Origin: Carallia brachiata
Taxonomy: Eukaryota; Streptophyta; Magnoliopsida; Malpighiales; Rhizophoraceae
Length of the DNA: 64,000 nt
Assembly: GCA_021464245.1 (NCBI GenBank)
Contig: JADCRB010000075.1
Coordinates: 2,849,555 to 2,913,554 of the forward strand
Direction: 5' to 3'
Part shown: piece by piece, positions 499 through 56,500 of the stretch
Position numbering within the stretch: the first letter of the stretch is position 1
Layout: each line of letters begins with the position of its first letter
The notes under the pieces: model-generated
Database searches by the model: none
Told to the model about the DNA's origin: nothing
Seen by the model: only the letters and a program-made list of their open reading frames with translations
Program-made: the position numbers and the translations under genes

Positions 499-1120
499 TG
501 TAAAGCGTAAATTTCGATTTTAAAATAATTAAACTCGAAAATATAAAAATAAATTACAAATAAAAATTATAAAAGAAAAGAAAATTTTCGTGGGGTCGAT
601 CTCCGTAGATCCTCCGATTAGTGTTCCTTTTTTTGACTCCGTCAAGGGCTGCACGAGCTTGATCTGGACAGAAATAATTTCCACCGCTTTTTCTTGAACT
701 GGATAGACTGAAACTGTGTCTGATTTGGATGTTTTGACTACGTTTAGGAACCGTAGAGACTCGATCTGCTGATCTGACTTAATTTCACCGAGGGTCGAAT
801 GACTTGTTCTCGGATGAGTTGCCTGGATTTTGCTGAGGTCGTATGAGGCTTAATCCCAGCCGGATTTGTAATATTTCGATTTTTTTTTTTTACTATCTCT
901 CTCTTTTTTTTTCTTTTTCTTTTCCTTTTTTTTTTCCTTGCGCGCTTCGCTGCTGGCTTTCTCTTTTTTTTTTTTTTTTGCTTCTGGCTGGCTTTTTTTG
1001 TTGCTGTATTCAATTATAGGCCTCCCCCAAGCCTGCCTGCCACCAACCAAATGGTTGGTGGCATTAATTAATTAGGTGGCGGCTGCCAACCATATAATTT
1101 TTTTTTTTTATTAGTTTACA
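499..1120 (-). repeat. 3' LTR of the Tat element
   Basis: This is the left-hand LTR, which is the 3' LTR because the element reads on the minus strand. It is 622 bp and aligns along its length with 9804-10490, including the block around 'gtggggtcgatctccgtag' and the C/T-rich tracts at 880-990. It lacks about 18 bp present in the other LTR: near 1010-1022 the left arm of a palindrome and part of its AT loop are gone, which also removes the likely TATA box. The two LTRs are identical at insertion, so the deletion happened afterwards. Confidence 0.93.
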
Positions 1121-1133
1121 AATGCCCCCACTT
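1121..1133 (-). other. Polypurine tract of the Tat element
   Basis: On the minus strand the bases immediately before the 3' LTR read AAGTGGGGGCATT, followed by the LTR start TGTAAAC. A G-rich purine run directly against the 3' LTR is the expected plus-strand priming site of an LTR retrotransposon. The position fixes the LTR boundary and the orientation of the element. Confidence 0.85.
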
Positions 1134-1597
1134 CAAGGGTCGGTAAGAAAGATTTTTTACAGAGATAATTCGAACCGAGTCTTGAAGTCCAGTTTGAAAT
1201 TTGGAAAGTCCTGATGAACATTGAATCTTGGAGTCTTCTATCTTTGACCATGCCTGCTGTTGTTGGATCGCAATAGGAAACCGATATGATCTTGAAGAAG
1301 TTAGCAGCCCAGCCAATATAGAAATTGAAGTCTTGGCTCCAGGTGCATTCGAGCTTCCATAGCCCGCAAAGGATTTTTGATATCCTTAAAGTTCCAGAGC
1401 TCTGGTGAGGATGATCCGGTAGGCAAAGAACTTGAACCTCCCCAAGAGGAAGGCCCAGGACCTTGGAACTTCAAGACCGGCACACAGAGAGACTGACTGT
1501 AGTGATGATTCCTAAGTCTGCTTCGACGTAAGGAGAGTAGTTGGAACTTCCCCGTACATCGCCGCATCCAAAGGAAGATTAGGATAATTGCAGCGTC

Positions 1598-1759
1598 TCA
1601 TCCCTCTGTGTAGATGTGAACTAAGGAGAGTAGTTGGAACTCCATGACACCGATGGCGTTAGGGATCCCTCGAGGAAGACTACTCCTTCTTTTCTTAGCT
1701 CGTGCGCCTCCAACTTCTTGATCGAAGAACTTCCTGAGACAAGTGCAGAGACTAGCCAT
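1598..1759 (-). CDS. Possible small accessory ORF (53 aa) in the element's 3' region
   Basis: A minus-strand ORF starts at an ATG in good plant context (AAAATGGCT at 1757-1759) and runs 53 codons to a stop at 1598. The product is basic in the middle (a KKRR stretch near residue 23) with no recognised domain. A TATA-like run lies about 55-65 bp upstream (1812-1822), and a 19-nt poly-A (sense strand) lies further upstream at 1834-1852. The bases coding for FQLLSL near its end recur about 95 bp downstream in the same frame (around 1526-1545), so the area contains a short direct repeat. This may be a chance ORF; I do not recognise the product. Confidence 0.2.
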   Translation of the reverse strand: MASLCTCLRKFFDQEVGGARAKKRRSSLPRGIPNAIGVMEFQLLSLVHIYTEG

Positions 1760-1811
1760 TTTCTTTTGAGAAAGAAGAGCTGAGGGGTGAGTATTACAAC
1801 TCGGGAATGCA

Positions 1812-1822
1812 AGATATATATA
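1812..1822 (-). promoter_or_regulatory. TATA-like run upstream of the small ORF
   Basis: The minus strand reads TATATATATC here, 55-65 bp before the ATG at 1759. The spacing suits a core promoter with a short leader, but simple AT repeats are common in this window, so this is weak support. Confidence 0.2.
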
Positions 1823-1833
1823 CATCGATAAAG

Positions 1834-1852
1834 TTTTTTTTTTTTTTTTTTT
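1834..1852 (-). repeat. 19-nt poly-A (sense) downstream of the WOX-like relic
   Basis: An uninterrupted T run on the plus strand is a poly-A tract in the direction of the element and of the WOX-like relic. It lies about 170 bp past the relic's stop codon at 2025. It could be a retained poly-A tail of a reverse-transcribed capture, or simply one of the many homopolymers of this element. Confidence 0.4.
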
Positions 1853-1946
1853 AAAAGTCAAAAAGAAGGTACGCAGATCGAGTAGGGCATCCACGTCCCT
1901 TTCCTGCATAAGAGACAAAAGAGGCAGCGGCTGACGCGTGTCACGA

Positions 1947-2023
1947 AAGTCGTTACCGTGTGTTGCAGAAGTCGTTGCCGTGTGCTGCAGAAGTCGTTCC
2001 GTGTGCTGCCAAAGTCGTTGCAC
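1947..2023. repeat. Short tandem repeat, 21-22 bp unit, about four copies
   Basis: The unit 'aagtcgttgccgtgtgctgc' is repeated with small changes from about 1947 to 2015 and followed by a partial fourth unit. It begins directly after the end of the WOX-like reading frame in sense orientation. Tandem repeats in the region between pol and the 3' LTR are known for Tat-lineage elements. Confidence 0.7.
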
Positions 2024-2024
2024 C

Positions 2025-2643
2025 TTATCTTGTCGGCCGTCCTAGCGGGGCCCGAGGCAACTCCAAGTCAAGCTCGACCTCGTCTGGTGGGCCGATGATG
2101 TTGACGTCGCTTTCCGGCTGGTTGATGCTGCCGGAATATTCTGGAAAGAGAGGCAAAATTTCGCCGGAATGACTCCTTTGCTAGAAAAATTCCTCCTAGA
2201 CTTAAGTATCTAGGAGGGATGAACCCTTGGCTGACTCCGTAAGACCACCAGGACCAGCATGCATGCTCCCATGGGCTACGGCTTTGATGAACATACCGTG
2301 GAGAGACCATTGCAGTGGAAGAACTCGGACCTGCTTCATTTGAGGCGAAGCTGTACCAGTGGGATTACTATGGAACGACAGACTGTTCTTTGGAAAAAGC
2401 AGTTCTCAGTGCTGGTTTCTTCCTGCTTCTCCGATTCTGGAACCAATAAAACACATTTTTTCCTTCGATTGCCCCGAGGGGCGCAATCGTGAGACAAGTT
2501 GGTAAATTGAGATGCATAGGAATAATACCTCCATTGTTGTGGAAGACTTCCTCCAAAATTTGCAGTTGTGCCATGGTCGGTTGCCACCTTGTGCGAGGTG
2601 ACCTTTCTTCTCCCTTGTCTTGAGGTTCTGCAACTGGTTCCAT
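2025..2643 (-). pseudogene. WUSCHEL-clade homeobox (WOX-like) gene relic captured in the retrotransposon
   Basis: From an ATG at 2643 the frame gives an N-terminus beginning MEPVAEP, then a WOX homeodomain at about 2595-2416. Helix 1 has TRWQPTMAQLQILEE; the loop and helix 3 have IEGKNVFYWFQNRR, the WUS-clade signature. Helix 2 is found in the other two frames (SQFTNLS, then SRLRPSG), so two to three one-base indels lie inside the domain. Two adjacent stops (2365-2370) follow the homeodomain. Same-frame text continues to about 2170, and in a third frame come a WUS-box-like LPLFP (2142-2156) and an EAR-like LDLEL (2058-2072), ending at TAA 2025-2027. Intact WUS-clade proteins bind DNA through the homeodomain and recruit TOPLESS-type corepressors through WUS-box and EAR motifs. 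The order, spacing and total length (about 200 codons) fit a small WUS/WOX5-size protein without introns. Family assignment is strong; function of this copy is unlikely. Confidence 0.85.
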
Positions 2644-2729
2644 CTTTCTTGTGGCAGAGGAGCAAAGGTCTTGGTATGTGGTGAAGATCGGTTGAGACTG
2701 ATGCTGAGTTTCAGACTCAAACCCTCCGT

Positions 2730-2737
2730 CTTTTATA
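2730..2737 (-). promoter_or_regulatory. TATA box of the captured WOX-like gene
   Basis: The minus strand reads AATATAAAAGACGG about 90 bp upstream of the ATG at 2643. TATAAAAG followed by a leader of about 60 nt is a normal plant core promoter arrangement. This suggests that genomic DNA, not only a spliced mRNA, was captured. Inference only. Confidence 0.4.
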
Positions 2738-2762
2738 TTTTTGGGCCGTTCACAGTTTATAC

Positions 2763-3000
2763 TCATGCGGGCCAGGAGTTGGATTGGATTTTGAACTTGG
2801 GTTTGGACTGTGTTTGGAACTTGGAATTTTTGGGTTTTGGGTTTGGATTGGATTTGGGTCGAGTGTTTGGGCTTCTAGACTTGGATTTTTGGACTTGGGT
2901 CGAGTGTTTGGGTTTGATTGATTTTGGATTTGGTTTGAGGTTTGAGTTGGGTTTTGAATTTGGGCTCAAGTGTTTGGGTTTGGATTTTCGCTTGGTCTTT
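2763..3000. repeat. G/T-rich degenerate minisatellite in the element's 3' region
   Basis: The plus strand is built of variants of 'ttgggtttggattttgg', including two copies of 'cttgggtcgagtgtttggg' about 45 bp apart (near 2853 and 2896). Translation gives only low-complexity N/P/K/S text. This is repeat DNA upstream (in sense) of the WOX-like relic, not a gene. Confidence 0.75.
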
Positions 3001-3016
3001 CAGATCGGGACTTCGC

Positions 3017-3019
<3 letters not shown>

Positions 3020-3051
<32 letters not shown>

Positions 3052-3094
3052 TTTTTTTTTTTTTTTTTTTTTTTATTTTTTTTTTTTTTTTTTT
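3020..3094. repeat. 75-nt poly-T (poly-A in element sense)
   Basis: Almost pure T, with single A interruptions at about 3050 and 3075. In element sense it is a long A tract lying just after the integrase stop at 3103 and before the minisatellite and the WOX-like relic. Its length is prone to assembly error. Confidence 0.9.
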
Positions 3095-3102
3095 AAACAT
3101 AT

Positions 3103-4400
3103 TTACACATAATACTGTTTCAGAAATTTACCATTGATTGGGCCGATTCGGACGCCTTCTTGGTCTGACAGCATGTAAGCGTTGTGAGTGTAGGCCTCCT
3201 GCACTAAGTATGGCCCGTCCCATTTGGAAGTAAGCTTGTCACCAGGCCGATGCTTCATGTTGATGGGCCGTCGCACTGCAAGAACAAGGTCTCCAACTTG
3301 AAAAGATCGAGGGCGGACCCTGCGGTTGAATGTGTTGGTGAGCCGGGCTTGGTAGCACTCAAGTTGCTGTTGTGCTTCGAGCCTCCTTTCATCGAGAGCT
3401 TCTAACTCATCCAGACGTAGGCGAGCATTCTCCTCCTGTGTGAGTCCTTCCAGAACAGCCATGCGCAGGGATGGAATCTGTGTTTCCAACGGCAGTATTG
3501 CTTCGACACCGTAGACAAGTGAGTATGGCGTCGCCTGTGTTGGAGTCCGGTAAGTTGTACGATACGCCCATAATGCCTCCGGAATTCTGTCATGCCAATC
3601 TCTTTTGGATTTAGAGACTACCTTCCGCAACAGGTTGCATAAGGTCTTGTTGAATGCTTCGGCCAAGCCATTTGCTGGGGCATTGTACATGGATGACTTG
3701 TACTGCTTGAACTTGAACTTCTCGCAGAGCTTGTCGATTAAGCTGTTGTAGAACTGCTTACCATTATCAGTGATGATGAATCGAGGGACTCCATAGCGAT
3801 AGATCAGCTGAGTCCGGATGAAATTGGCAACATGCTCCTTCTTTACCTCTCTAAGTGGAATGGCTTCAGCCCATTTTGAGAAGTAGTCGGTTGCTGCGAG
3901 GATGTACAGGTGACCCAGGGATGACTTTGGCAAGGGCCCCACTAAGTCGAGACCCCAAGCTTCAAAGGGCCAGGATGAGACAGTTGGATGCAGTGGCTCC
4001 GGTGGTTGATGTATGTAATTCGCATGAAATTGACAAGCTTGACAGTTTTAGCAAACTCAATTGAATCACGTACCATGGTTGGCCAGTAGTATCCCATCCT
4101 TCTGAGTTGGAAGTGCAACTTAGGCCCGATTGATGTCCGCCACAAACACCAGAATGTGCTTCAGTGAGAGCCTGTTTTGCCTCTTCATTGGCTAGGCAGC
4201 GAAGTAGAACTCCATCAAAAGACCTTCGATACAGAGCATCCTTGAGATATATGAAGCGGGGAGCTCGTCGTTGAATTTCTGTCTTATGACGACGATCTTC
4301 GGGCAGCTTCCCGTGCTGTAGGTAGTCAATGATTGGTTGGCGCCAATCTCGTCCTCCGCGAGACGTACAGATACAGCGTTGGCTGCTGTAGTTTCTTCAT
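3103..4400 (-). pseudogene. Tat element integrase, frameshifted in its N-terminal part
   Basis: The core and C-terminal part are open from 3942 to the stop at 3103. The catalytic DDE residues are visible: D in ATDYFSKW, D in ITDNGKQF and E in NGLAEAFNKTL. A C-terminal GKL-type region with WDGPYLVQEAY follows. Upstream, the HHCC zinc-binding part is split among frames. The second Cys pair is only readable after a one-base shift at about 4041-4050, and a further shift lies near 4123. The linker back to RNase H is readable at 4310-4150 in another frame. The enzyme would insert the cDNA copy into the genome; this copy is broken. Confidence 0.9.
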
Positions 4401-5384
4401 CATCCTTCTGTGGCACTATCCATTTCTGATACGGCAACAACTGTAGCCTGGATTTCTGACTTTGCAAGAGAAGTGGCCAGGTTAGCCAACGCGTCTGCCT
4501 GAGTGTTTTCTCGTCGAGGCACATGCTCCAAGGTGATGCTTTCAAATTCATCCATTAGCTGTCGAGCACGTTGATGGTAAGGCGCAAGGTCCTCTTTCTT
4601 CACTCATACAATCCTGTAAGTTGGTTGATGACGAGCTGGGAATCTCCATGGACTTCTATAGTTGGAATCTTCATATCGACAGCCATTTGAAGACCAATGA
4701 TCAAAGCCTGGTATTCAGCAACATTATTTGAACATAACTCACCGAGAATGATAGCATATGGTAGTATTTGTCGTTGAGGAGTGACAAACACTATGCCGGC
4801 ACCAGCACCATCACGCCTTGCTGCACCATCAAAGAACATCGTCCATGGTGGTAGTGTCTCAATGTAAAAGACCTCTTCATCTGGAAGATCATCTGTGAAC
4901 TCCCAATCTGACGGAACAGGGTGATCTGCAAGGAAGTCTGCTAGAGCTTGTCCTTTGACTGCTTTTTGAGGCACGTAGACAATGTCGTAGCTTTGTAGGA
5001 TTACTGCCCACTTGGCAAGTCGTCCTGACAAGATTGGTCTGGATAAGATATATTTGACAGGATCAGCTCTGGCAATGAGACGTACCGTGTGAGCTTGCAT
5101 GTAGTGCCTCAGCTTGTCAATGGCAAAGAACAGTGCTAGACATGTCTTTTCAATGGGCGAATAACTCAGCTCCGGACCATTTAGTGTTCTGCTCAAGTAG
5201 TACAGGCAACTTCCTTTCCCTGCTCGTTTTCCTGTGCAAGCAAGGCTCCCAAAGATCTTTCCTGTGCTGCAATGTAGAGAATCAACGACTTTCCTTGAAT
5301 TGGAGCACACATGGTGGATTGGAAAGATACTTCTTTATGCTTCAAAGGCTTTGCTGCAAGCTTCGTCCCACTCGAAGTTGACAT
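4400..5384 (-). pseudogene. Tat element dual RNase H (gypsy type plus archaeal type)
   Basis: The first RNase H is read from about 5384 to 4960, with YIAAQERSLGALL and LYYLSRTLNGPELSYSPIEK; it is cut by a one-base shift at about 5207. After a linker, an archaeal-type RNase H starts near 4850 with MFFDGAARRDGAGAG, followed by NNVAEYQALIIGL and VHGDSQLVINQL, which carry the expected acidic residues. A further one-base loss at about 4604 breaks it before the final HVPRRENTQADALANLA segment, which contains the closing D. Two RNase H domains in tandem between RT and integrase define the Tat lineage. Confidence 0.9.
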
Positions 5385-7772
5385 CCTTCTTCATCAACCG
5401 ATGGAAAGGTTGACATCTCCCAGCTAAATTGGAGATGAAACGGCGAATGTAGGCCAGCTTTCCTTGTAGACTTCGCAGCTCGTGCAGGTTTTTAGGTTCA
5501 GGCATCTTTTGAATTGCCTCAACCTTTGACTGATCAACTTCGATTCCACGATGGCGCACCACGAACCCAAGAAACTTTCCTGATGTGACACCGAATGCGC
5601 ACTTGAGAGGGTTCATTTTGAGCTGATGCCTCCGAAGTCTTTCGAACACTGTCTTGAGATCCTCGAGGTGGTCTTTGCGCTTCTTAGTCTTTACAACTAA
5701 GTCATCAACATAACATTCTACAATCTTGTGCAGCATGTCATCAAAAATTTTTTGCATAGCACGTTGATAAGTGGCGCCAGCATTTTTCAATCCAAACGGC
5801 ATAACTTTGTAGCAGTATATACCTTTTGGGGTGCGGAATGCTGTCAACTCCTCGTCTTCTGGTGCCATTCTGATTTGGTTATAGCCTGAAGAACCATCCA
5901 TGAAGACAATGCTTCGTGACCCGTTGTTGCATCGACTGTGATCTCCGTTATGGGCAATGGAAAGTCATCTTTCGGGCAGGCCTTGTTAAGATCTCGAAAA
6001 TCAACACATACCCTCAACTGTCCATTCTTCTTTCTTACCGGGACAATGTTGGCAATCCACGTTGGGTAGGTGACCTCTCGGATGAAGCCAGCATTGATCA
6101 GCTTGTTCACCTCCTCCTCGATTTGTGGAATGAGTTCCGGGCGGAACCGTCGTTGTGGCTGCTTGACAGAACGAACACCCTTCTTTACTGCTAGACGATG
6201 CACCGCAATTTTTGGGTCAAGTCCAGGCATTTCTTTGTAACTCCATGCGAACACGTCCCTGTATTGACTTAATACCTGAACATATTCTTGCTCTTCTTCT
6301 GCAGTAAGTAAAGCACTTACAAATGTAGGTCGAGGATCTTCCGGAGAGCCAAGATTGACCTCCTTGAGTTCATCAACAGTTGCTTGGCCACCATCTTCAA
6401 GTTCCGGGGGAGCCTCCTTCACTTCACCATCTGATGAGTCAGACTCAGCCTCCTCGCTGATTGTGACATGAAATGTGGAGCCCCTGACTTCGCCTTCTTT
6501 GTTTGATTGGATAAGCCTGTCTTGTCTGGTTGTGGTGGTGATGACACGTGCATCAGCTGGTCGGCTTCGACTCTTTAGCGTGATCCGCACAGGTGACTTC
6601 TCCTGATAGCCCAAGCCAGGTCGGGACTGTGATGTTTGAGAAGCGGCGCCATGTGTGGACGGCAGCGTACCCATTGTGCTCGGGTTTGAAAAGTCATAGC
6701 CCGCCTTTGCCAAAAGCTTGTATGCATTAGGATCAAATCCTTCATGTGTTCTTCTTTCTGGAAGTGAGCCACCTTCAACTGCCCCCGTGTGTGGTTTGAC
6801 GAAGCCTTTTAATGGTTTTGAAGACAAAACCGGCTCAATCTTTGGTATCGGCAGAGTGTAAGTCTCCTTCAGGTTGTGCAGCTCCTTTGTTTTGGGTTGG
6901 CTATGACCTTGCTCCTGTTTAAGATCAATACAATAAGAGAAAGGGGGTTGACCTTCTGAGCGTCGTGACTTTGGCACATAGCGTAGGACTGGAGTGGAGC
7001 TTGAAGATGCAACATCCTTCGGACGGAGTTCGGCAGGCTGTGGCAGCTTTTCATTTGTTGGAGTCTGAGGTTGAGCATTGGCAGGTTCTTCGACAGCTTT
7101 TCCCTTTTTGTGGATGCCCCTAGTCCAAGTAGCTTTTGACGGAATGATCTCCGGATTGTCTGTGTCAGTGTAGAAGACTGCATCCGCCAAATGTGATTCA
7201 GCATCATCGAACGGCTTTAAGTCAGCATTGACCTTTTGAACGCCACCATTGTTGTACTTGAAACACTGATGTAAGCTTGAGAGCACAACTCCATTTCCAT
7301 GAATCCACGGTCGTCCTAGCAACATCTTATATGTGGTACGTGCATCAATCACGTGAAATAGAGTGCTAGAAGTGAGATTACCGATAGATAGCTCCAAGCG
7401 AATCATCCCAATTGCTTTTTGTCCTCCTTGATTAAAGCCATGAATCATCAGACGGCTGTCTGATAACTCATCAACACCGATGCCGAGCTCCTTTATGGTG
7501 GATTTTGGGATAATATTGACTGCTGAGCCATCGTCGATCAGAATACGTCGAACCTTCTGCTCTTTCACATAGCCTGATACATACAGCGGCCGATTGTGGG
7601 GTTTGGACCCCAGCAGGAGATCCTCATCTGAAAATGAGATAGCAGAGTAACATCCGACGTGATTTTGGTCCGCCTGTTGCTCCGTCGAGCTGGAATTACT
7701 TGATGGCAGAGGTTCAGCTGAGGTCTGAAGAGTATTGCCGACTTGATTTTGCCACACTTCTGTTGTTTGCAA
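5335..7772 (-). pseudogene. Tat element aspartic protease and reverse transcriptase
   Basis: An open stretch of 642 codons (7772-5844) contains the aspartic protease (ILIDDGSAVNIIPK, with LLGRPWIHG downstream). After a charged linker, the start of the reverse transcriptase follows (RKKNGQLRVCVDFRDLNKAC). A one-base loss at about 5898 shifts the frame. RT continues from 5901 to 5335 with MPFGLKNAGATYQRAM and the catalytic YVDD box in CYVDDLVVKTKK, ending in the connection region. Another shift at about 5340 separates it from RNase H. All catalytic motifs are present, so the copy looks recently inactivated or affected by sequence errors. Confidence 0.92.
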
Positions 7773-7861
7773 AGCTGTAAACAGCTGAGGGTTAGCGAGA
7801 AGGGTTGGAGAGCTTCAATACCTTCTCCGTTGTCGACTTTTTGTTGTCGAGCGGCTCCTCC

Positions 7862-9580
7862 TTACGGTGTGTCACTTCTTCTCTGATGGTTTTGAAGTGA
7901 TGGTGGTTGGTTTGCCGAGGTTACGCCTTCCTGGTCCAGAATGATTTTATTCTGGCTTTTGAGCTTCATGATTAGCTCCTTCAGGACGAAACATTTCTCA
8001 GTTGGATGACTTACTATCCGGTGATATTTGCAGAATCTTGGATCGCTGACTCGATCCTTTTCATTCGGCCGCTTGCACTCTGGGAGTTCGATCAGCTTCG
8101 CCTCCAAGAGTTGTTCAAGAATGTCGGGGACGTCTGAGTCGGGGAATGGATACTGCTTCTGCTCCAGCTCTCGCAATGTCACCTTCCGCCTTTCCTGTTG
8201 TTTTGGCTGAGTTATTTGGGTCGGAGGATTTACCTTAGCTCTGGCGCCCACTTTTACTGGTGCGGCTTCAACAGTCATCACTTCCTTTCCTTTTCCGGAG
8301 CTGTTGGGTTTCTTAATCTCCCTTCTGCCCCCTTGCTGGTCCAACTGGATGGGAACGGTGCCTCCGGAAGTCTGGATGCTTATCTCCATGTCATGCGCGC
8401 GGGTCGCCAGTTCTTCGAAAGTTCGGGGTTTGACACCCTGCAGGATGTATAACAGCTCCCAATGCATTCCCTGGATGCACATCTCTACGGCAGAAGTCTC
8501 CGTCAGGCGATCTTTGCAGTCCAAGCTGAGGGCACGCCATCTGTTGATGTATTCGACAACGGGCTCTCCTTTCCTTTGTTTGGTGCTGGTAAGCTCCATC
8601 ATACTTACCGTCCTTCGAGTGCTGAAAAATCTGTTGAGGAACTCTCGTTGTAGCTGTTCCCAACTGTCGATCGATTCTGGTTCAAGATTTATGAACCAGG
8701 TAAAAGCGGTCTCCCTGAGTGAACGAACAAACTGCTTCACCAAGAGATCTCCATAAGTCCCTGCGTTGTTGCAGGTTTCAACGAATGGGCGATGTGCTGT
8801 TTGGGATCGCCTCGTCCGTCGAATTGTTGAAATTTGGGCGGTGGTAGCCCAAGGGCATGTTGAGACTTTCGATCCGTCTGGTGTACGGTTTGACGTACAT
8901 CTGTGATCCTTGGAAGGATGTAGCTTGTTGCAGTCGGATCGTATTAGCTATCATTTCCTGCAATTGTTGAACAGATAGCGAAGCTACAGAATTTGAGGGT
9001 GGCAGCTGTGTAGAACTACCTGGTCGCTTTTCTGCAGGGAAGACGTCGGCTGGTGTGGCTTCTGGAGTGAAACCGGGTGGATATGGTTGCTCCTCGCGGA
9101 TTTCGGGATCAACTTGGATCGGGGCTTTTCCTTTGAGAGCTGCGATCTGTTGATCTTTTTCCTCCACGACTCTGATCAGCTGTAAAATTTTGTTCTCCAA
9201 TTCTGAAATCCTTTCCTCTGTGCTGGTTGTGTTGGTCATCATGACGGCAACAGATGAGGCTCCGGGAAAGACTGGGGGAGAAAACTCTTCTGATTCTTCT
9301 GTGTGGAGTCTGAGTTGATTGTTGAGCGGTTTCGTCGCGTTGCCCCCGATTCGATCGGGGTGGGTGATCGACTCCTCCATGCGGCAAGAGAGTCAGGGGA
9401 GAGATCCTGTTGTGCGAGCTGTGGACTCTCCATTTCGACATTTTGTCGGGTTTGGACGGCAAGAAATTGTGTCCGTCCCCGGGTTTCTGGTCCTGCGTAC
9501 CCAGGTAGGGTAGTTGATGCAGGCAATGGAGCCGTTGCCTTCTTTTTTGTGGCAGCAGTTGTACTCCTTTTCGGTGCCAT
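7862..9580 (-). pseudogene. Tat element gag, frameshifted
   Basis: Gag starts at about 9580 with MAPKRSTTAATKKKA. The frame shifts at about 9380 into the next part, which has a predicted coiled coil (TEERISELENKILQLI) and a proline-rich stretch. It shifts again near 8835 and 8785 before the retrotransposon gag core at 8743-7862 (ETAFTWFINL, WEQLQREFLNRFF, EPVVEYINRWR). A basic and glutamine-rich tail follows. No clear CCHC zinc knuckle is visible. Gag would form the virus-like particle that packages the element RNA. Confidence 0.85.
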
Positions 9581-9599
9581 TTGATGTGTTGAACACCTG

Positions 9600-9725
9600 T
9601 AAAATTTTTTTTTTTTTCTTTTTACTTTTTTACTTTTTACTTTTTTACTTTTTACTTTTTACTTTTTTTTTTTTTACTTTTTACTTTTACTTTTTTTTTT
9701 TACTTGTTTTACTTTTTACTTTCGG
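9600..9725. repeat. (TTTTTAC)n microsatellite in the element leader
   Basis: Repeated 'ttttttactttttac' units lie between the gag start and the 5' LTR. In element sense this is a (GTAAAAA)n leader. It contributes only low-complexity reading frames. Confidence 0.85.
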
Positions 9726-9779
9726 CTCCCCTTTTACCTCTTTTTTTTTTTTACGGAACAAGAGATGGGAGGTGAAGAT

Positions 9780-9797
9780 GTCCCACCGAGCGTGCCA
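9780..9797 (-). other. Primer binding site of the Tat element
   Basis: On the minus strand, six bases after the 5' LTR end, the sequence reads TGGCACGCTCGGTGGGAC. It starts with TGG, complementary to the CCA end of a tRNA, and has the length of a normal primer site. I did not match it to a specific tRNA. Confidence 0.7.
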
Positions 9798-9803
9798 AAA
9801 ATT

Positions 9804-10216
9804 TGTAAAGCGTAAATTTCGAGTCTAAAACAATTAAACTCGAAAATACAAAAATAAATTACAAATAAAATTGTAAAGAAAAGAAAATTTACGTGGGGTC
9901 GATCTCCGTAGATCCTCCGATTAGTGTTCCTTTTTTGACTCCGTCAAGGGCTGCACGAGCTTGATCTTGACAGAAATAATTTCCACTGCTTTTTCTTGAA
10001 CTGGATAGACTGAAACTGTGTCTGATTTGGATGTTTTGACTACGTTTAGGAACCGTAGAGACTCGATCTGAGCTGATCTGACTTAATTTCACCGAGGGTC
10101 GAATAGACTTGTTCTCGGATGAGTTGCCTGGATTTTGCTGAGGGCCGTATGAGGCTTAATCCCAGCCGGATTTGTAATATTTCGATTTTTTTTTTTTTTT
10201 TACTCTCTCTCTTTTT

Positions 10217-10259
<43 letters not shown>

Positions 10260-10490
10260 CTTTTTCTTTTTTCCTTTTTTTTTTCCTTGCGCGCTTCGGT
10301 GCTGGCTTCTCTTTTTTTTTTTTTTCTCTGCTGCTGCTTTTTTTGTTGCTGTATTCAATTAATTGGGGAGGCCATTTATAGGCCTCCCCCAAGCCTGCCT
10401 GCCACCAACCAAATGGTTGGTGGCATTAATTAATTAGGTTGGCAGCTGCCAACCATATAAATTTTTTTTTTTTTTTTTTATTAGTTTACA
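9804..10490 (-). repeat. 5' LTR of the Tat element
   Basis: This LTR is 687 bp. In element sense it starts TGTAAACTAAT at 10490 and ends CTTTACA at 9804. It contains the promoter-side palindromes and TATA box (10365-10454), then long A/G-rich tracts (about 10187-10330), then the conserved U5-side block shared with the other LTR. Confidence 0.94.
10365..10454 (-). promoter_or_regulatory. Palindrome-rich U3 promoter with TATA in a hairpin loop
   Basis: Three palindromes follow each other. 10365-10389 has 9-bp arms GGGGAGGCC / GGCCTCCCC around the loop ATTTATA, so the sense TATAAAT box lies in the loop. 10402-10423 has arms CCACCAACC / GGTTGGTGG around AAAT. 10437-10454 is a perfect 18-bp palindrome, GGTTGGCAGCTGCCAACC. 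The middle one is intact in the 3' LTR; the first lost one arm there and the last is degraded. Confidence 0.6.
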
Positions 10491-11864
10491 CCTATATCAT
10501 TACTTCTCATGTTCTATCCTCATTTACACGTTCTTGTTATGCATACAATCAGCTATGAAGTTTATAGTTTAGAAACGGAATGAGATAAAATAAGAATCAC
10601 TTTAATTTTTAAAATTTGGTTTGGTTTAAATCTTTAATTTAATTGCAAAATAGTCGCTTCGAAAAATGAGACATCTTATTGAACCCAAATTTTCAAAGTA
10701 AATATACTAAATATCGAAATTTCACGACCCATCTCCAACCTATAATTCAATCTTCGGTTTCTTTAAAATCACTTAGTGCTAATCAGGCGTAAACTTTAAA
10801 ATTAAACTAACTCAACTTCAACTTATCAGGCCTAAACTAAATTGGCCAAAACGATCTTCTCGACTTATTCATCTAAGGCGAATGGTAATTGTAGTGACAA
10901 ATGGTGCAAGCACATGGCAATCGAATTGCTCAAATGTCAAGTGTTTTTAAACTAGAAAATGGATTAATCTCCGCCTAATTATATGGAAATCAAAGAAGGT
11001 TTCCAATTCCATCCCAGAGGATGAATCTGGGAAGTACCCATAAGCCATGACTTAATAAGGCTTTTTTTTTTTTTTTTTTTTGAGACATGACTCAATAAGG
11101 TTAAAAGAATGAGATCCCAATTTTTTGTTAAAAATTGTGCCATAAATATCCAAATGGCGATACCCAGTTTGACATCTATCATTTTCCCCCCCCCCAAAGG
11201 CTGCCGCCAGCCAGCAAATATTACATCAGTTAATAACCATGTAATTAAAAAGCTTGATTATAAGGATATGTCTAGTGAGGTACGTAAAAGACACACAGTT
11301 AATTTGATAATTTATTTATTTTTTATTTTTTAAAATTCAATATATTTTTTACGATTTAACGATTTAAATTACTATATATCAATTATGTTCTTCCTTAAGT
11401 GTGGCCTAAAAGTATTTTGGAAAATTAAACATTAGTCTCCCCAGCACTCACTTTTTTTTTTTTTTAAGTTTTGTTAACATTATCAGTCTAATTTATTCCT
11501 TAGGAACATTTTGTCAGAAACACCTCTGGACCACGTTCCGATTAAATCGCACAGATTTGAGAAGATCATTTGCCACTGAAAACGAACCGTTGTAATTGTT
11601 GACTTTAGTCCCCTATTTTAATAAGAGAAGAAGGACAGGTAGGTACATCCTGCCTATGCTTCTATCACATTTCTCAGTCCAACACTAACAACTCAAATTC
11701 CACATTGAATGGGAATTTTGACTACCATACCTGATCAGAATAAGAAGAGATAAGGAGTTACGGGCTTTTTCCCTCCCTCATCAGGTAGGTCGCCTCTGGC
11801 TACTTACCTTTTCAGTGCCATAATATACACCAAACATACACCCTTCACATAAAGAGAGATAGAG
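10491..11864. other. Intergenic, upstream of the wax synthase-like gene
   Basis: No coding sequence is recognised. The region is AT-rich with poly-T runs (11061-11081, 11452-11465) and a C run at 11186-11195. The last 150 bp, with CT-rich stretches, is the likely promoter and leader of the gene at 11865. Confidence 0.6.
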
Positions 11865-12936
11865 ATGGAGGCCAAAGGGGTGGAGGATGAGCTCAAGAAC
11901 TTCATCAAGGTGTGGACTTTAGCCATAGCAGCACTATGTTATTGTTACTACATAGCAGCAAGAATCCCGAGAGGCATTCCAAGGCTTCTCTCCCTCCTTC
12001 CTGTATTCTACCTCTTCATCATCCTTCCCTTGGAACTCGCCTTCTCCAATCTTGCTGGCCCCACTTCATTCTTCCTTGTTTGGTTGGCAACCTTCAAGCT
12101 CCTCCTTTTCTCTTGACCAAGGCCCCCTAATATCACCACACCCACCAAATGTTCTCCATTTCATCTCCTTGGCTTGTCTTCCAATAAAACTCAAACAAAA
12201 CCCTTCAAAGGCAAAAACCAATAACATTCATGAAAACCCACCAGAATTATTCTTGCCTTGGCCCGTTTTATTGGCAATCAAAGCAGCTCTTCTTGTAATA
12301 ATCTTTCATAGCTATAACTATAAACAATATATGCACCCCAATGTGGTGTTGGTTCTATATTGCTTGCATGTTTATCTTGTGCTTGAAATTGGGCTAGCCG
12401 TATGTGCAGCCCTGACTCAAGCCCTTTTCGGGTTCGAGCTCGAGCCACAGTTCAACGAGCCTTATCTAGCCACATCGTTACAAGACTTTTGGGGCCACAG
12501 GTGGAACCTCATGGTCACAAGTATCTTACGCCCCACCATATACTATCCCGTGAGGCAAATCTCATCGTCTGTGGTTGGCCCCAAATGGGCTCCATTGCCA
12601 AGTGTCGTCGTCACATTTATTGTCTCCGGACTAATGCACGAGATTTTATATTTCTATGTGACGCGCATGAGTCCCACCTGGGAGGTGATGTGGTTTTTTG
12701 TGCTGCATGGGATTTTTGTGGCCATGGAGATTGTGGCTAAAAAGATGGTGGCTCACAGATGGCAGCTGCACCGAGTGGTTTCTGGTCCATTCACACTTAT
12801 TTTCGTGGCCACAACTGGGGTTTGGCTATTTTTGCCACAGCTAGTCAACAATGGTGCGGATGACAAACTCATAGCTGAATACTCAACTTTGGCAAATTTT
12901 GTAAAAGACAAACTTTATAGATTGATAATTTCATAG
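11865..12936 (+). pseudogene. Wax synthase-like MBOAT acyltransferase, one frameshift
   Basis: The frame opens at ATG 11865 with an N-terminal hydrophobic region (VWTLAIAALCYCYYIAARI) and runs to 12116. A one-base loss at about 12112, in the motif KLLLFS-DQGPL, shifts it. The rest is open to the stop at 12936 and carries the family's signatures: SLQDFWGHRWNLMV, RPTIYYPVR, the MBOAT histidine in SGLMHE and a C-terminal WLFLPQLV. Intact members are single-exon ER membrane proteins of about 340-350 residues that esterify fatty alcohols with acyl-CoA to give wax esters, or related acyl transfers. Total length here (about 356 codons) is normal, so only the one base separates it from an intact gene. 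A sequencing error is possible; otherwise it is a young pseudogene. A partial copy of its 3' end lies at 15361. Confidence 0.88.
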
Positions 12937-29720: not shown

Positions 29721-32704
29721 ATGTTGAAAGAAGTGGCGGCATTTCAACTTCAACTGACGAACCCCAAGGCGTCGCCGCCGTGTTCGTCGTCGTCTCCGTC
29801 ATTGTCCACCACAACGTCACTTCACCAAAGGCTATGTAGCTATTCTCAGATAAGCAGGTGCCGGAGTGCGTGGAAACGGCACCGCTTGAGTTCCGGCAGC
29901 GTGAGCTGCTCCTTCGCTCCTCCTGTAGACTCTGCCAAGATAAAAGTGGTCGGTGTCGGCGGCGGCGGCAACAATGCCGTTAATCGCATGATTGGCAGCG
30001 GCTTGCGGGTCTTCAATTTCCCTCCCAACTTTAATTTCTTTCCCTTTTTTTTTCTTTTTTTTTATTTTTTTGCTTTTCCCAGAAAAACAAAAGAGATTTA
30101 AAGGGAATAATTAAGAGATTTTAATTTTCTTTTTTTTTTTGTGCGTATTTTATCTTTTTGAATAACGCCCACATTTTATGTCCCAAACTTGAAGCTTGTA
30201 AAAATGGTGTCCACTGTTACTCATGTTGGGTTGTATTGGGGCTTTTTTCTTTTTTTTTTGAATGCCTTAACATGAGCTTGACTTAAAGATTTTTTTTTTT
30301 TAGTTTTTTTCTGCTGTTTACTATGGGGAAATATGTGTATTTGTTTGGAGAACATTTGGTGTTAAAATTGTTGATAGTTTCTTTCAAGAATGCTTTCTTC
30401 GTGTTATGTTGAGTTTTTAGCTTTTTGTTGTTTTTGGTTAGAAAGCTGTTTTTGGTTCATTGTTTATTATACGGCATTTCTGTTGTATTCCTGCTTGTGT
30501 TCTGTTTTGTTGAATGCTGTGTCTCTTGGGGCATGTTTGCTTTGTTCATGCCGTGGTTGCGGGTTTCGTTCATTTTTTTTCCTTGCAATGATGCTGGGTG
30601 CAGTTGTGTGGAAATTTATCTCATTAATAAGATAGTTACAACTGCATGAAAATTTATAATTTGATTTCTTTTTCTTTGAGTTTCCGAATTTTATTTTTTT
30701 TGGTTGTTGTCTAGTTTGAATGGAAGTATTTGATAATGCTAATATATGGTTGGTTGGAAAACAGGGTGTCGATTTCTATGCCATAAACACAGATTCTCAG
30801 GCACTGTTGCAGTCCGCTGCAGAGAACCCACTTCAGATTGGGGAGCTTTTGACTCGTGGACTAGGTCTACCTTTCTCTCTATGGTGTACTTTAATGCTAT
30901 TTTGCAATATATAAAATGTTTCGTGTTGTACTTTTTTTGTTTTTTGATCAGATCACTTTTTAGAGATGCAGGCACTGGTGGGAATCCACTTCTGGGAGAG
31001 CAAGCTGCAGAGGAATCAAAAGAAGCCATAGCAAATGCTCTAAAGGGCTCAGATCTTGTGTTTATCACAGCTGGTATGGGTGGAGGCACAGGATCTGGTG
31101 CTGCTCCAGTTGTTGCTCAGATATCAAAGGAAGCAGGATATTTGACTGTTGGTGTGGTTACCTACCCCTTCAGCTTCGAGGGGCGTAAAAGATCGCTGCA
31201 GGCAGGTGCCATTTTTCTGTTTATCATGTGTAAGTCGTTTACTAGTTGATGGTCTCAGAAAGAAGCTTTCTTTCATCTGCGAAGACCAAAAGATTTGCAT
31301 CTTGCACATTCGCTGATGCAGTAATGTCACTCTCTGGTATCGAGCAGATCAAATCTTGCACTCAGCTGAACTGAGTGCTACTTTTATTTGCGGCATAGAT
31401 AAGATGCTAGTTTGTAATTTTCTGCCCTGTCAAGTGTGGAGCACAAACCTTTAAACTATGAATTTGTCCCAACATGTCTTGTATTTCAATTTTCAGGCAT
31501 TAGAGGCTATTGAAAAACTACAAAAGAATGTTGATACGCTAATAGTGATACCCAATGACCGGCTGCTAGATATTGCTGATGAGCAGACGCCCCTTCAAGA
31601 TGCTTTCCTACTTGCTGATGATGTTCTCCGCCAAGGAGTGCAAGGAATTTCAGATATAATTACGGTTGGTGGTTTTATGCAACACTGCTAAACTATATTG
31701 CTATGTTTCACTTTTCATGAATGTGCATTGGTATTCATTTAAATTAGTCTGTTTTCCCTTGGGTTCTGGCTGAAAAATTGCTGGAGCAGCCCCTTCATCA
31801 TGACTAGATTAAAGCAAATTGCCTCTCATATTATATGCAGACTTGTGTGTGTGTCTGTGAGGGGTTGCTTAAGGTTTTGACACTTTTATATTGCAATGAG
31901 CTGAGGTTAGTTGTTTAAAATTTGGTGTGAAGTTAACAAGTACCTTTCATGTAGTTTCTAGCAGCTAATTTGACCGGAGATGCAAATTTAGCTTCTAAGA
32001 ATTTCACAATTTAGCCCCCTGATGATGTGGTATTCCTCTATTCTGCAGATACCTGGACTGGTGAATGTGGATTTTGCAGATGTAAAGGCAGTGATGAAAG
32101 ATTCTGGCACTGCAATGCTTGGGGTTGGTGTTTCGTCCAGCAAAAATCGTGCTGAAGAAGCAGCAGAACAAGCAACTCTGGCACCCCTAATCGGATCATC
32201 TATACAGTCAGCTACTGGAGTAGTATATAATATTACTGGAGGAAAGGACATAACATTACAAGAAGTAAATAGAGTGTCCCAGGTACTTTGTTACTCTGCA
32301 ATTTCTGGACTCTCTGGTTGAAAAGAACCTTTCCAACTATGCCATGACAAAATGTTCTGCATTGTCGAATCCCATTAGTTTGGGGTTGTGCTTCCCCTAT
32401 TTCCCGATGCTAAAGTTTATGGATATATTTTCAGGTTGTGACAAGTTTGGCTGATCCATCTGCAAACATAATATTTGGGGCTGTTGTCGATGATCGTTAC
32501 AATGGGGAGATTCATGTGACTATCATTGCCACTGGCTTTTCTCAGTCGTTTCAGAATACACTTCTGACGGACCCCAAGGCTGCAAAACTGCTAGACAAAA
32601 TGGCAGGGAGTCAACAAAGCAAGAGCATTCTCACCCCACAAAAGTCCTCAACATCACCTTCACCTGTTCCTTCTAGGCCCTCTCAACGAAAGCTCTTCTT
32701 CTGA
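29721..32704 (+). CDS. FtsZ1: Plastid division protein FtsZ1
   Basis: Six exons (29721-30008, 30765-30864, 30972-31201, 31497-31664, 32049-32282, 32435-32704) close in frame to 429 residues, close to the 433 of Arabidopsis FTSZ1. Residues 1 to about 60 are Ser/Arg-rich and fit a chloroplast transit peptide. The mature part has the nucleotide-binding [16 protein letters not shown], the tubulin/FtsZ signature [15 protein letters not shown] and the T7-loop NVDFADVK. The end, RKLFF, is of FtsZ1 type and lacks the C-terminal core motif of FtsZ2. FtsZ1 co-assembles with FtsZ2 into the stromal Z ring that constricts plastids. Intron 3 appears to start with GC (CAG|GCAGGT) and end at 31496. An alternative GT-AG pair four and seven bases further on would keep the frame but drop one conserved Leu. 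Its 3' end faces TAF6, with 297 bp between stop codons. Confidence 0.96.
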
Positions 32705-43074: not shown

Positions 43075-44250
43075 TTAATAAAAAAAGTCAATACAAAAAT
43101 TTCTTTCTCGAACAGTATGCGGAAGATGAATATCCCATTCACCCCTACGAAGTGAACCAATGTCCATAAGCAACACAGCCAAGGGGTCAGAGACAACACA
43201 TTTAAAGCAAATTAAGTGCAAAACTTCAAGAGAGACAGTCTCAAAAGTAACACTTAAAAAACCAAGAGCCCAAACAGGTTCCAAGTCATGCCAAAAACCC
43301 AGAAGCTTTGCTACCATATTAGAGGTCACACCTGATGGAGTCATAAAACCACCCAGCCAAACTCCACGATCATCCCGCAAAAGGCCCCCATAACCAGCCT
43401 GATCCGAATTACCACAAGCTCTGTCATTTATATTAATTTTAATCCACCCTGGTGGAGGAGCTTCCCACCCAACTAAGCGTGGCACCTTGTAGTTATGAAC
43501 TTCAAGAAAGGAAAAGCTAGCGAAGCAATCATTCACCAAATGTTTGATCTGCCTAACAAGTTTGAAATGCGATGACTGAGTCCCACCAATAACTTCTTCA
43601 TTTCTATTTTTCCAGACAGACCAACACACACAGATAAAAACCATCCCTGGATCCTTTAGAGAAATAAAGCAAGAATGCTTTTTTAAGCATGTGTGGAGCC
43701 AAGCCTCCAAAAGAAGCAAAAAGAAGAAAGGACCGGATACCCAGCCATCAACAAGCAATTCTTCCCACACCCGACAGACTGAACCACAACCGCGAAGGAG
43801 GTGTAAGACATCTTCAGGAGCAGCTTGCACCTTTGACAAATGGAAGATTCACAAAGACCTCTCTTCATGCGTTCTAAATTAGTCAACAACCTTCCTTTTA
43901 GAACCAACCATAGGAACGTTTTATATTTAGTGGGCACTTTTAATTTCCATATTCATAGCCAATCATTGAGCATACCACGAGATTGATGCCTTCGTGACAA
44001 CCATGCATATCCGTCCTTAGAAGTGTAAGCACCATTAGAGCTAGCCATCCAACATACGGTATCATGACCCAAAGCATGTCGTGGAAGTGGGACAGCCCTG
44101 ATCAAATGCCCAACCTCAGAAGGAATATCCGTGTGAACTGCATCCAAGTTCCATCGACCATTCACAATCACCTCACTCACCATAAGCAGCTGAGCATCAT
44201 TGGAACTAATAGATGGAACAAGACTGCAAGTACCTGGATATTGCATATGA
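43075..44250 (-). mobile_element. LINE (non-LTR retroelement) 3' fragment, degenerate
   Basis: On the minus strand, 44246-43953 and 43937-43683 share a frame that is broken by a TGA at about 43953. They include the zinc-binding region found after the RT of plant LINEs (PTKYKTFLWLVLKGRLLTN, then SSICQRCKLL). A frameshift leads to 43839-43075, with the RNase H-like domain (PPPGWIKININDRACGNSDQAGYGGLLRDD). In that domain the usual catalytic Glu position reads VAKLLGFW instead of an AE pair, so it is inactive. The RT core and everything upstream are missing, which is the common 5' truncation of LINEs. No poly-A tail or target duplication could be assigned. Confidence 0.85.
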
Positions 44251-53517: not shown

Positions 53518-56500
53518 ATGGAAACAGCGGTGGACGATAATGATCGTCCAGAGGTCCAAACGGACGGCGTCGTTTTGGTTGGGGAAAAGAGAGGAGCGGA
53601 GAGTGGGGAGAGCGAGGAGGGGGTTTTGGAGGCGAAGAGGGCGAAGAAGAGCAGGGCCGGGGCCCGGGAGATGAGTAGAGTGGCGGAGATTGTGCTGGTG
53701 TTGTCGGCGATGGCGGGGCTGAGAGGAGGGAGGAGCCCGACGGATGCGGAGCTGGATTTGATGGCGGAGGCGAGGGCCAAGTTGGCCGAGATTTGCCGGG
53801 ACTTGGCCCCCAGGGATTTGGTGGCCAGAGATGCGATTGGGACTGTTATTGAGGATTTAGGGCTCAATTGGAAGGCCAAAGACCAAAGATTAGGGTTTCG
53901 CGGGAACAGGATTTCAATTAAAGAGAAAGTCTTGCTTGCTAAGAGAAAGGTAAAGGATGTGATTAGGCCACTTTTAGTGCTTTTTTTTTTGTTTCTTATT
54001 TGATTTTTGTATTATTGATGATTCTTGACTGTTGTGCTATGCTTGCTTGATACCAACGAGGATGAGAATCTTGGGGGTTTAGAAGGAATGATAGATTAAA
54101 AGTTATTATTTGCGTTCTTAGAGAAACATTAACGTTCTTTTTTCGTAGTTGTAGTTCTTGGTTTGATTGTTATGCTGTTCTTGGTGCTCAAACGTTTTGT
54201 TTGGGCTAATTAAATGTTTCGTCTAGCAGTTCGAAGTCGCCAACTTGCAAAGGATTTTGCTAGCTTATTGTAATGAGCATAGTCTATTAAGCGATGTATT
54301 TTGGTAGTAAGTTCATTTTTTCACTGGGTGAATGTTGGATAATGACTTCTTTTGGCTGGATGAAGCGTTTAGTGCGTCTCTGGTTTTTGTTGGTTGCTGT
54401 AAAAGTCTATGGGAATTGAGAAAAATGGAATCTTTTTTATTTTTCTCCAGATGGAAGACTCCAAGAAATTTGCTGCTCCATCAGTGCCAAGCATTGACTC
54501 AGTGGCTGAAAGCCGTGGGACATCAAATAATCATCGCATGTTTCCATCAGATAAACAAAGTAATCCACCATTGTCTTCTGGAGGCCTTCCAGTTACTTCA
54601 CCACTAGGTCATATCTCAGTGTCCAGTACTACATCTATGACACATCTGCAGCCTACTGAAGTACGAGCATCCGTAGGGTTACCTAGTCATAATCTAGGAA
54701 GGGATTCATCAACATCAGCTTTTCCTAGAGTCGATAGAACACAACTGAAATCAGATGGAGCACCAAAGGGGTCTTCTACTCAATTACAAGGTAATGTCTG
54801 CTTTTCCTTCTTCCACCTGATTCTTTTTCCCTACTGGATACAAATAGTGTCTACTTTTATTGCTTTTGGTTCTTTTTTCCTCACCTCATCCTTCTTTTCA
54901 ATTTTTGGTTGAGTGCAAAATCTTAGAGTGTCCTGAATAGGATTGTAGGATAAATAGTGTAAAAGCTGAGGTTGTGCTAGTCTTGGGTAGGATCAATGGG
55001 TTTTGAAGCTTTTGCCCATCTGCATTGGGTGTTTCTGACAGTATGCTATGGTTTGATGGTGAAGTAGATGGTGGTGGATCAAAACAGAGATCCATCAACC
55101 CTGGAAATCTGTGTATGGAGTATGGACATTTGAGGACCCAGACATTTATCTTAGTTGGTACATGCCTTTGTTTCCTCCCTTTGTCAGCTTGTGCATGTTT
55201 GAATGGGGAGAGAGGGGAGGATTGGGGGTGATTGGGCCTGAAGAAGCATATGGTTTAGGCAGTAGCTTTTTTGATATATCCATATTAACAGATTGTCACT
55301 TTAAATAGTTTCATTGTTTACATTAATGAAAGGTTATTGGGCAATATAATCCTCTTTTGGTCTCCATCGTTTATGCCTTTTGATTTATCTAATTGCAGCA
55401 AATTTATCAACAAATCAACCGCTGGTAAATGCACCAACTTGGTCAATTCAGCCCCATTCTACATCATCAACTAAAACTGCTTCAGAAATTAAGATGCCGA
55501 ATCATAGCCTTGCGAAGGTTGATGGAACTGCTGATTTGGGTGTGCCACGAACAGCTCCTCAACCAGTAAGAGATCAAGCTTCCCGACCATCCGTCACTCA
55601 AGCCGCACATCTAAATCTGCCAGGCGTACATCAGCCTATGCAAGGCATGAAGTATGTTCAACCTCCAACATTTTTTAATAATCACCATGAAATTGCAAAA
55701 ATTGTTCAAAAATTATTGCAACCAAAGATTCCTGAACATCCCACATGGACTCCACCTTCAAGGGAATATATGAACAAGGCATTGACCTGCCAAATGTGCA
55801 AACTTACAATTAATGAGGTGGAAACTTTAGTTGTTTGTGATGCCTGTGAGAAAGGATATCACTTAAAATGTCTGGAAGCAATTAATCAGAAAGGAATTCC
55901 AAGAGGTGAATGGCACTGCATGACGTGCGTAGCATTAAGCAATGGGAAGCCTTTTCCTCCAAAATATGGTCGTGTCATGAGAAGTATAGCTCCAGCCAAA
56001 CCGCCTTCAAACTCAGCTGGAGCACAGTCACCATCAGAGAAGAAAGTCGCAACTGTAGATGTGAAGGTCAATCGGGAGAATGTAACTGCAAATGTAAGCT
56101 TTGCTGTGGAGAACCCTGTTGGATCTAGTGGTACAGGCAGCAGCACAGCTGATTCAAATACTCCTAATGCAATACAGAAGCCCGGGAATATTGTGATGTC
56201 AAGTGGAAAAGATGTTCATCCATCTGTTGGAACTTTTCCAAATAACCTGACAAAACCATTGGGTACTGTTAGTGATTCTTCTGCCATAAGTTCATCAACT
56301 CAACAAACTGAATTTTCTGAATCACTTGCACAGAAAGAGAGATCAGCTTCAGAATTGAAATGTCAGGCTTCCACTACATCCTACGAGATTGCTAATAAAA
56401 ATGAACATTTGAAGACCTCGGACAATTTGCAGTATATCCACACAGAAGCACCAAATTGTGCAGAAGGTACTTCCAAGATTTGCCAGGAGACGCGAGACCA

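Follow-up and report, generated by a model that had tools for sequence, protein, structure and literature searches.

In Tat elements of the Retand/Grande/RIRE2 type, an extra and probably nuclear DNA-binding protein (TRP28, gene23) is encoded between pol and the 3' long terminal repeat (LTR) and is kept across copies (PMC11963269, PMC7264820). As far as the accessible portions of these papers tell, the extra open reading frames (ORFs) lie for the most part in antisense and code for TRP28 or other domains, and the sense ORFs in the same compartment of the Retand elements encode no known domain (Vicient 2025, PMC11963269). Host-derived sequence also lies within LTR elements of maize (Bs1), rice and sorghum. 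The subject of this report is a Ty3/gypsy element of Carallia brachiata (Rhizophoraceae) that carries a WUSCHEL-like homeobox gene in this compartment. The stretch analyzed, hereafter the window, comprises 64,000 nucleotides (positions 2,849,555 to 2,913,554 of contig JADCRB010000075.1, assembly GCA_021464245.1), and a whole Tat-type element copy of 9,992 bp occupies positions 499 to 10490 on its minus strand, delimited by a blastn LTR pair, TG..CA ends and flanks. In the family to which this copy belongs, the compartment between pol and the 3' LTR probably houses a stable accessory gene, an intron-free transcription-factor gene derived from WUSCHEL. In contrast to the Retand-type ORFs, the gene is in sense orientation and encodes a WUS-type homeodomain, and the region from pol to the 3' LTR measures 1.98 kb (1121-3102), whereas 2.9-6.6 kb is given for Retand in the available part of PMC11963269. 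Unlike the captured genes of maize, rice and sorghum, it is common to a large family and its homeodomain is constrained.

A preliminary description of this DNA had located a homeobox, oriented like the element, between its integrase and its 3' LTR, and this placement was borne out. TRWQPTMAQLQILEE and IEGKNVFYWFQNRR are encoded in one minus-strand open frame of 168 codons (2368-2874), situated between the integrase (3103-4047) and the 3' LTR (499-1120), and both the frame and the element read on the minus strand. The homeodomain (2416-2595), the middle of which differs from the text of other copies, scores significantly with the Pfam Homeodomain profile (5.7e-11; 42.5 bits, the cut-off being 22.9). 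Among solved structures it matches WUSCHEL at 4.6e-12 and STENOFOLIA at 1e-9, while the four other listed chains reach just E 0.25-0.77. The span first singled out, 2025-2643 (minus strand), turned out to be the whole accessory gene, with its Met codon at 2641-2643, a WUS-box-like EILPLFP at 2142-2162 and an EAR-like LDLEL at 2058-2072. This copy is broken by frameshifts and stops, so that the WUS-box-like and EAR-like texts are out of the frame of the homeodomain. A protein search with the broken copy returned 11 homeodomain proteins, of WOX type where named; another such search gave no match, and no relative was found in the viral contigs searched. A homeobox on the plus strand was also considered and rejected, the plus-strand query containing nine stops and the gene sitting on the minus strand. 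The stretch between integrase and gene (2650-3100) contains a long poly-A/T tract and, as read on the minus strand, short PKPKTQ-like repeats, and its text varies among copies.

The family was searched and counted in one genome, the same host assembly (164 contigs, 337.5 Mb in total). A search with the window protein listed 151 matches, 150 of 3,032 first-look candidates having been scored. A 32-base degenerate pattern for helix 3 (GKNV-[FY]-[FY]-WFQN-R) occurs at 593 places and at none when read backwards, the 593 being a count of pattern matches, which haplotype duplicates retained in the assembly would inflate. A chance homeodomain is excluded by this difference and by the Pfam and solved-structure scores. 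Seventy loci were sampled (30 taken by similarity, the 20 that ranked next, and 20 picked for having no listed stop), the first being the window copy. In 62 of them, the window copy included, the gene has an integrase upstream of it in the same orientation. This shared arrangement excludes a private nested insertion, the possibility against which the preliminary description had to be checked. LTR sequence follows downstream in 29 loci within a flank of about 1.5 kb, all 29 of which have the integrase, and no LTR match was found within that flank in the other 41. In the remaining eight loci (L018, L020, L056, L058, L061, L063, L064, and L070), no integrase was found in the examined flank, and a WUS-like gene is still present, whole or partial. 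Upstream of it, L020 and L063 have a gag of the same family (70-73% identity), and L064 and L070 have a match to the region that surrounds the end of the 5' LTR and the leader. The eight are similar to one another, partly via repeats that precede the WUS-like gene, and only L056 among them has a frame of at least 195 amino acids. Judged from their flanks, they look like derivatives that have lost pol and retained the gene.

Intact copies, the existence of which had been left as a question by the preliminary description, do occur. A frame of at least 195 amino acids is present in 19 of the 70 loci, a fraction that is not unbiased because 20 loci were picked for lacking stops. With stricter motif filters, full frames of 200-212 amino acids with all three modules were found in 18 of 74 copies (15 of the 70 sampled loci and 3 of 4 further ones). 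These open copies have a single frame of about 205 codons, which begins with MEPVAEPQDKGEERSPRTRWQ... and continues with a WOX homeodomain, a linker, ETLPLFPEY, and a C-terminal ELDLELHLG. In the 19 loci with the long frame, LPLF of the WUS box (TLxLFP) is present in all, and [LV]xLxL occurs within the last 14 residues in 16. LDLELHLG differs from the exact WUS form L[DE]L[ST]LN, and the score of the accessory protein with the Pfam EAR profile was not significant. The WUS box is common to modern-clade WOX proteins and the EAR motif occurs also in WUS, WOX5, and WOX7, according to the available part of PMC6788696. The order of homeodomain, WUS box and EAR-like motif is the same as in the WUS proteins found, for example METLPLFPMHGED...ASLELSLS (P0013). 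The element protein differs from WUSCHEL in having one open frame for all modules, with about 205 amino acids against 293 in Arabidopsis (P0112), in QNR instead of QNH in helix 3, in the absence of evident linker similarity, and in belonging to a retroelement family with hundreds of motif places. In the host WUS genes L071 and L072, named from their motifs, the homeodomain and the WUS box are in separate open segments, with 1.06-1.16 kb between the motifs, whereas they share one frame in the element, which suggests that its gene came from a spliced message.

Several features point to WUSCHEL as the donor. A profile of seven open copies had a WUSCHEL-like protein as its best database match (1.3e-17; 228 hits among 7,992 scored candidates) and matched the solved WUSCHEL at 3e-19; most of the named proteins among the 120 matches listed are WUSCHEL, together with one WOX2 (P0094) and several proteins without such a name. 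RW and NVFYW (or NVYFW) stand 45 residues apart in every one of the 6 element and 10 WUS rows, and 44 apart in each of the 14 rows for other WOX proteins, host WOX1-5 and WOX11 among them; this feature was observed here and does not come from the literature, several rows were named from motifs, and the Ipomoea row P0127 was left out. P0127 (Ipomoea triloba, 145 amino acids) is itself a very short 'WUSCHEL-like' protein with QNQRGRE in helix 3, with ETLPLFPMH and SLELTL close together and with a long branch in the tree, and it may be another compact, mobile or retro-copied WUS.

Helix 3 reads NVFYWFQNR or NVYFWFQNR in the 18 open copies and not NVFYWFQNH, which is the homeodomain signature of the modern clade (PMC6788696, in the part available). 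The WOX tree that had been suggested as a means of finding the donor gene was run on homeodomains and did not name one. Its element rows form one group (96/89) on a long branch, and in the best tree without the Ipomoea row this group joins two WOX11 rows (74/84). The approximately unbiased (AU) test did not reject grouping with WUS (p 0.155), WOX5, WOX3, or WOX1. A donor from the intermediate clade (WOX11/12 type) would account for this pairing and for QNRRSR in helix 3. We nevertheless consider it quite unlikely, given the WUS length of the element homeodomain (45, against 44 in WOX11), the C-terminal ETLPLFP and LxLxL motifs, the best profile matches, which bear WUSCHEL or WUSCHEL-like names (WOX2, P0094, and unnamed proteins also occur among the 120 listed), and the likely pull of the long branch. 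The best reading is that the gene is WUS-derived, as indicated by the top database matches, the extra residue of the homeodomain and the motifs at the C-terminus, but is not a WUS-clade member by every defining feature, since the tree singles out no donor and helix 3 has QNR. The WUS-clade identity given in the preliminary description gains support from the WUS-box-like and EAR-like motifs and the length of the homeodomain, and not from helix 3 or from the tree.

The LTR pair of the window copy is 86% identical over 695 columns, gaps included (blastn), and its Kimura two-parameter (K2P) distance is 0.040, with 24 substitutions in 614 aligned columns. At a substitution rate of 1.3e-8 per site per year, this would suggest an insertion about 1.5 million years ago. 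The examined parts of the two LTRs of the open copy L090 differ over about 690 bp by 3 mismatches plus gaps (blastn) or by 8 (MAFFT), and the LTR pairs of two other copies, C99 (K 0.019) and C132 (K 0.048), are older than that of L090. Of 40 places scored against a 761-bp stretch of L090 that holds the open gene, 14 (the stretch's own among them) are identical to it, and each of the 40 reaches 99 or 100%. The spread of the element with its gene, raised earlier as a possibility, is therefore visible in these identical places, and the family has transposed in recent times with its gene unbroken.

By homeodomain text, the 18 open copies form three groups, A (8), B (4), and C (6). Between these subfamilies, homeodomain changes lean synonymous and the linker is unconstrained. 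The pair L011-L090 has 6 synonymous changes and 1 non-synonymous change in the homeodomain, with a ratio of non-synonymous to synonymous differences (pN/pS) of 0.05 (Fisher p 7e-4), and the frame-shifted controls of this pair gave 1 to 5 and 0 to 7. The values for L019-L087 (0.10, p 0.0024), L016-L090 (0.36, p 0.0012), L011-L016 (0.45, p 0.019), and L019-L051 (0.47, p 0.026) go in the same direction, although the pairs share history and are not independent tests. At 33 of its 42 synonymous sites the element homeodomain departs from host WUS, with the signature of the fold kept, and the capture is therefore probably old. A- and B-type copies differ by 0.5% in the integrase, 11.5% in the accessory gene and 16% in the homeodomain, and the difference takes the shape of a block that extends from the middle of the homeodomain into the linker. 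Uniform divergence is ruled out by this pattern, and the simplest account is that recombination between co-replicating elements is likely to have produced it.

The role that we propose, tentatively, is autoregulation. The sequence TTAATGC, which fits the WOX-bound TTAATSS that WUS also uses, is present on the minus strand in the 3' LTR (1061-1067) and in the 5' LTR (10423-10429), in the latter about 49 bases before a TATA-like box. It is found 44-51 bases before the TATA-like box in 21 of the 26 LTR pieces that have a palindrome anchor and a TATA, a count that is not independent evidence because LTR copies share descent. TTAATSS occurs in 2.8% of mononucleotide shuffles, and the site was chosen after inspection of the LTRs. 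Binding of TTAATSS has been reported for PtrWOX13A (PMC9274204, in the part available). TTAATGC is thus a lead, a candidate WOX site in the LTR promoter. The same LTRs (window 1030-1110 and 10380-10460) contain the palindrome CCACCAACCA..TGGTTGGTGG, and a second palindrome, GGTTGGCAGCNGCCAACC, lies near the promoter in the LTRs of many of the copies examined. A TAATTAATTA cluster was also considered as an LTR site and was rejected, being present in 5 of 32 LTR pieces, three of which are the window's own (win3LTR, win5LTR, and L001).

In the scheme that we favor, a spliced WUSCHEL message would have been captured by the element long ago, and the gene would then have been retained because its protein helps the element. 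The protein would bind WOX-type sites in trans, including TTAATGC in the element's own LTR promoter, and this binding would tie expression of the element to shoot stem-cell tissue, where new insertions are heritable. Plants form their germ line late, out of shoot stem cells, and a retroelement that carries a stem-cell regulator would therefore gain direct influence over heritable transposition. The most likely account of the gene is that it encodes an accessory regulator maintained by selection. Among its roles, we think that stem-cell-tied autoregulation is the most likely and that interference with host WUS comes next.

By interference we mean that a compact homeodomain protein with repressor motifs would compete with WUSCHEL or mimic it, altering the stem-cell niche that passes insertions on. 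The homeodomain and the WUS-box-like and EAR-like motifs are kept, as in WUS, and the EAR motif recruits TOPLESS co-repressors (PMC6788696, in the part available). The DNA-contact helix, QNRRSRKK or QNRRHRET in the element, differs from QNHKARER, and the targets may therefore differ from those of WUS, which leaves this role rather doubtful. A service in integration or nuclear entry instead of transcription seems unlikely. The protein shares the compartment between pol and 3' LTR and a predicted DNA binding with the antisense TRP28 of Retand (PMC11963269), and a nuclear role of such ORFs is discussed in PMC7264820, both as far as the portions available go. Against it, the gene is in sense orientation, no observation here links the protein to integration, and the Pfam scan of this region of the window copy gave no match, to TRP28 or otherwise, in five ORFs, two antisense (2602-3096 and 1912-2172) and three sense.

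A number of points weigh against a stable WUSCHEL-derived accessory gene with a role of its own. Besides the single-genome scope, the QNR of helix 3, the tree with its AU test, and the shared descent of the LTR copies, the bases neighboring TTAATGC are also conserved. No frame of at least 195 amino acids was found in 51 of the 70 loci, the window copy among them. The pN/pS of the linker is 0.69-1.07 and that of the C-terminus 0.31-1.17 or undefined, none significant, and the dN/dS within groups is 0.54-1.02, nearer neutral, as is expected if much of the change came after insertion. The many broken frames and the linker values would suit a captured gene fragment that is copied along as a passenger with no role, and capture of host genes by LTR elements is known (PMC7264820, in the part available). 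Such a passenger appears unlikely beside the synonymous lean of homeodomain changes between subfamilies, the fold signature that stays despite the synonymous differences from host WUS, and the loci that keep the gene with no integrase in the examined flank.

An expansion of WOX genes in Rosa chinensis bears a likeness to this family. According to the part of PMC11405225 that was available, 364 of 381 RcWOX genes fall in rose-only clades I-V, the expansion is left unexplained, TLPLFPMHGED and SLELSLNSY text occurs in most proteins of the largest clade, and there are no collinear genes within the rose genome. The main text of that paper contains no word starting with 'transpos' or 'retro' (PMC11405225). 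WOX-like genes that number in the hundreds within a single genome and bear WUS-box and EAR text may represent a phenomenon of the same kind as the element family, although no rose-named protein is among the 120 matches listed for the seven-copy profile. That retroelements repeatedly took up WUSCHEL as their own master regulator, which would confine or boost LTR transcription in shoot stem cells and so reach the germ line, with the rose WOX genes as a second, independent instance, is a speculation that we regard as improbable at present. A literature search aimed at a WOX-carrying retroelement found none by title or abstract, most subscription journals being outside its reach. The main text of Neumann 2019 contains no word starting with 'homeo', and the available parts of the cotton and rapeseed WOX papers deal with elements near WOX genes, not with WOX genes within elements.

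With hundreds of motif places, the family appears to be a recently active one with its own intron-free version of WUSCHEL. It supplies many WUS-like coding copies to the host, which can distort the counting of gene families, perhaps in the rose case too, and which could contribute new developmental regulators. It also makes a long-standing question testable, namely the function of the extra ORFs in plant LTR elements.

The other parts of the window copy, all on the minus strand, are those of a Tat-type element. The 3' LTR (499-1120) and the 5' LTR (9804-10490) were delimited by the blastn pair, and the flanks have a target-site duplication, TCTAT (494-498) and CCTAT (10491-10495), with 4 of 5 bases the same. 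By eye, a polypurine-tract-like GAAGTGGGGGCATT adjoins the 3' LTR (1121-1134), and a primer-binding-site-like TGGCACGCTCGGTGGGAC lies at 9780-9797. Pfam identified gag (7862-8947; Retrotrans_gag 2.9e-15), the reverse transcriptase (5335-5964; RVT_1 2.8e-31), and the integrase (rve 7.6e-11), and the protease part of pol (5844-7814; Asp_protease_2 9.8e-4) scored under the curated cut-off. A native RNase H followed by a second one is encoded at 4600-5334 (RT_RNaseH 3.2e-17, RVT_3 1.7e-11), the two domains lying in one ORF at 33-116 and 168-241. In the sense direction the order of domains is gag-PR-RT-RH-INT, as in the Tat clade, with the protease match below its cut-off. A paired RNase H, the second of archaeal type, is a feature of that clade (PMC10508981, in the part available). 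By its dual RNase H and its domain order, the element would accordingly be classed as Tat-type Ty3/gypsy. Elsewhere in the window, open frames on the plus strand resemble, by eye, a wax-synthase-type membrane protein (11956-12936), an FtsZ exon (30743-31249), and a PHD-finger protein exon (55350-56849), and a frame on the minus strand (43075-43848) likewise resembles an RNase H-like stretch.
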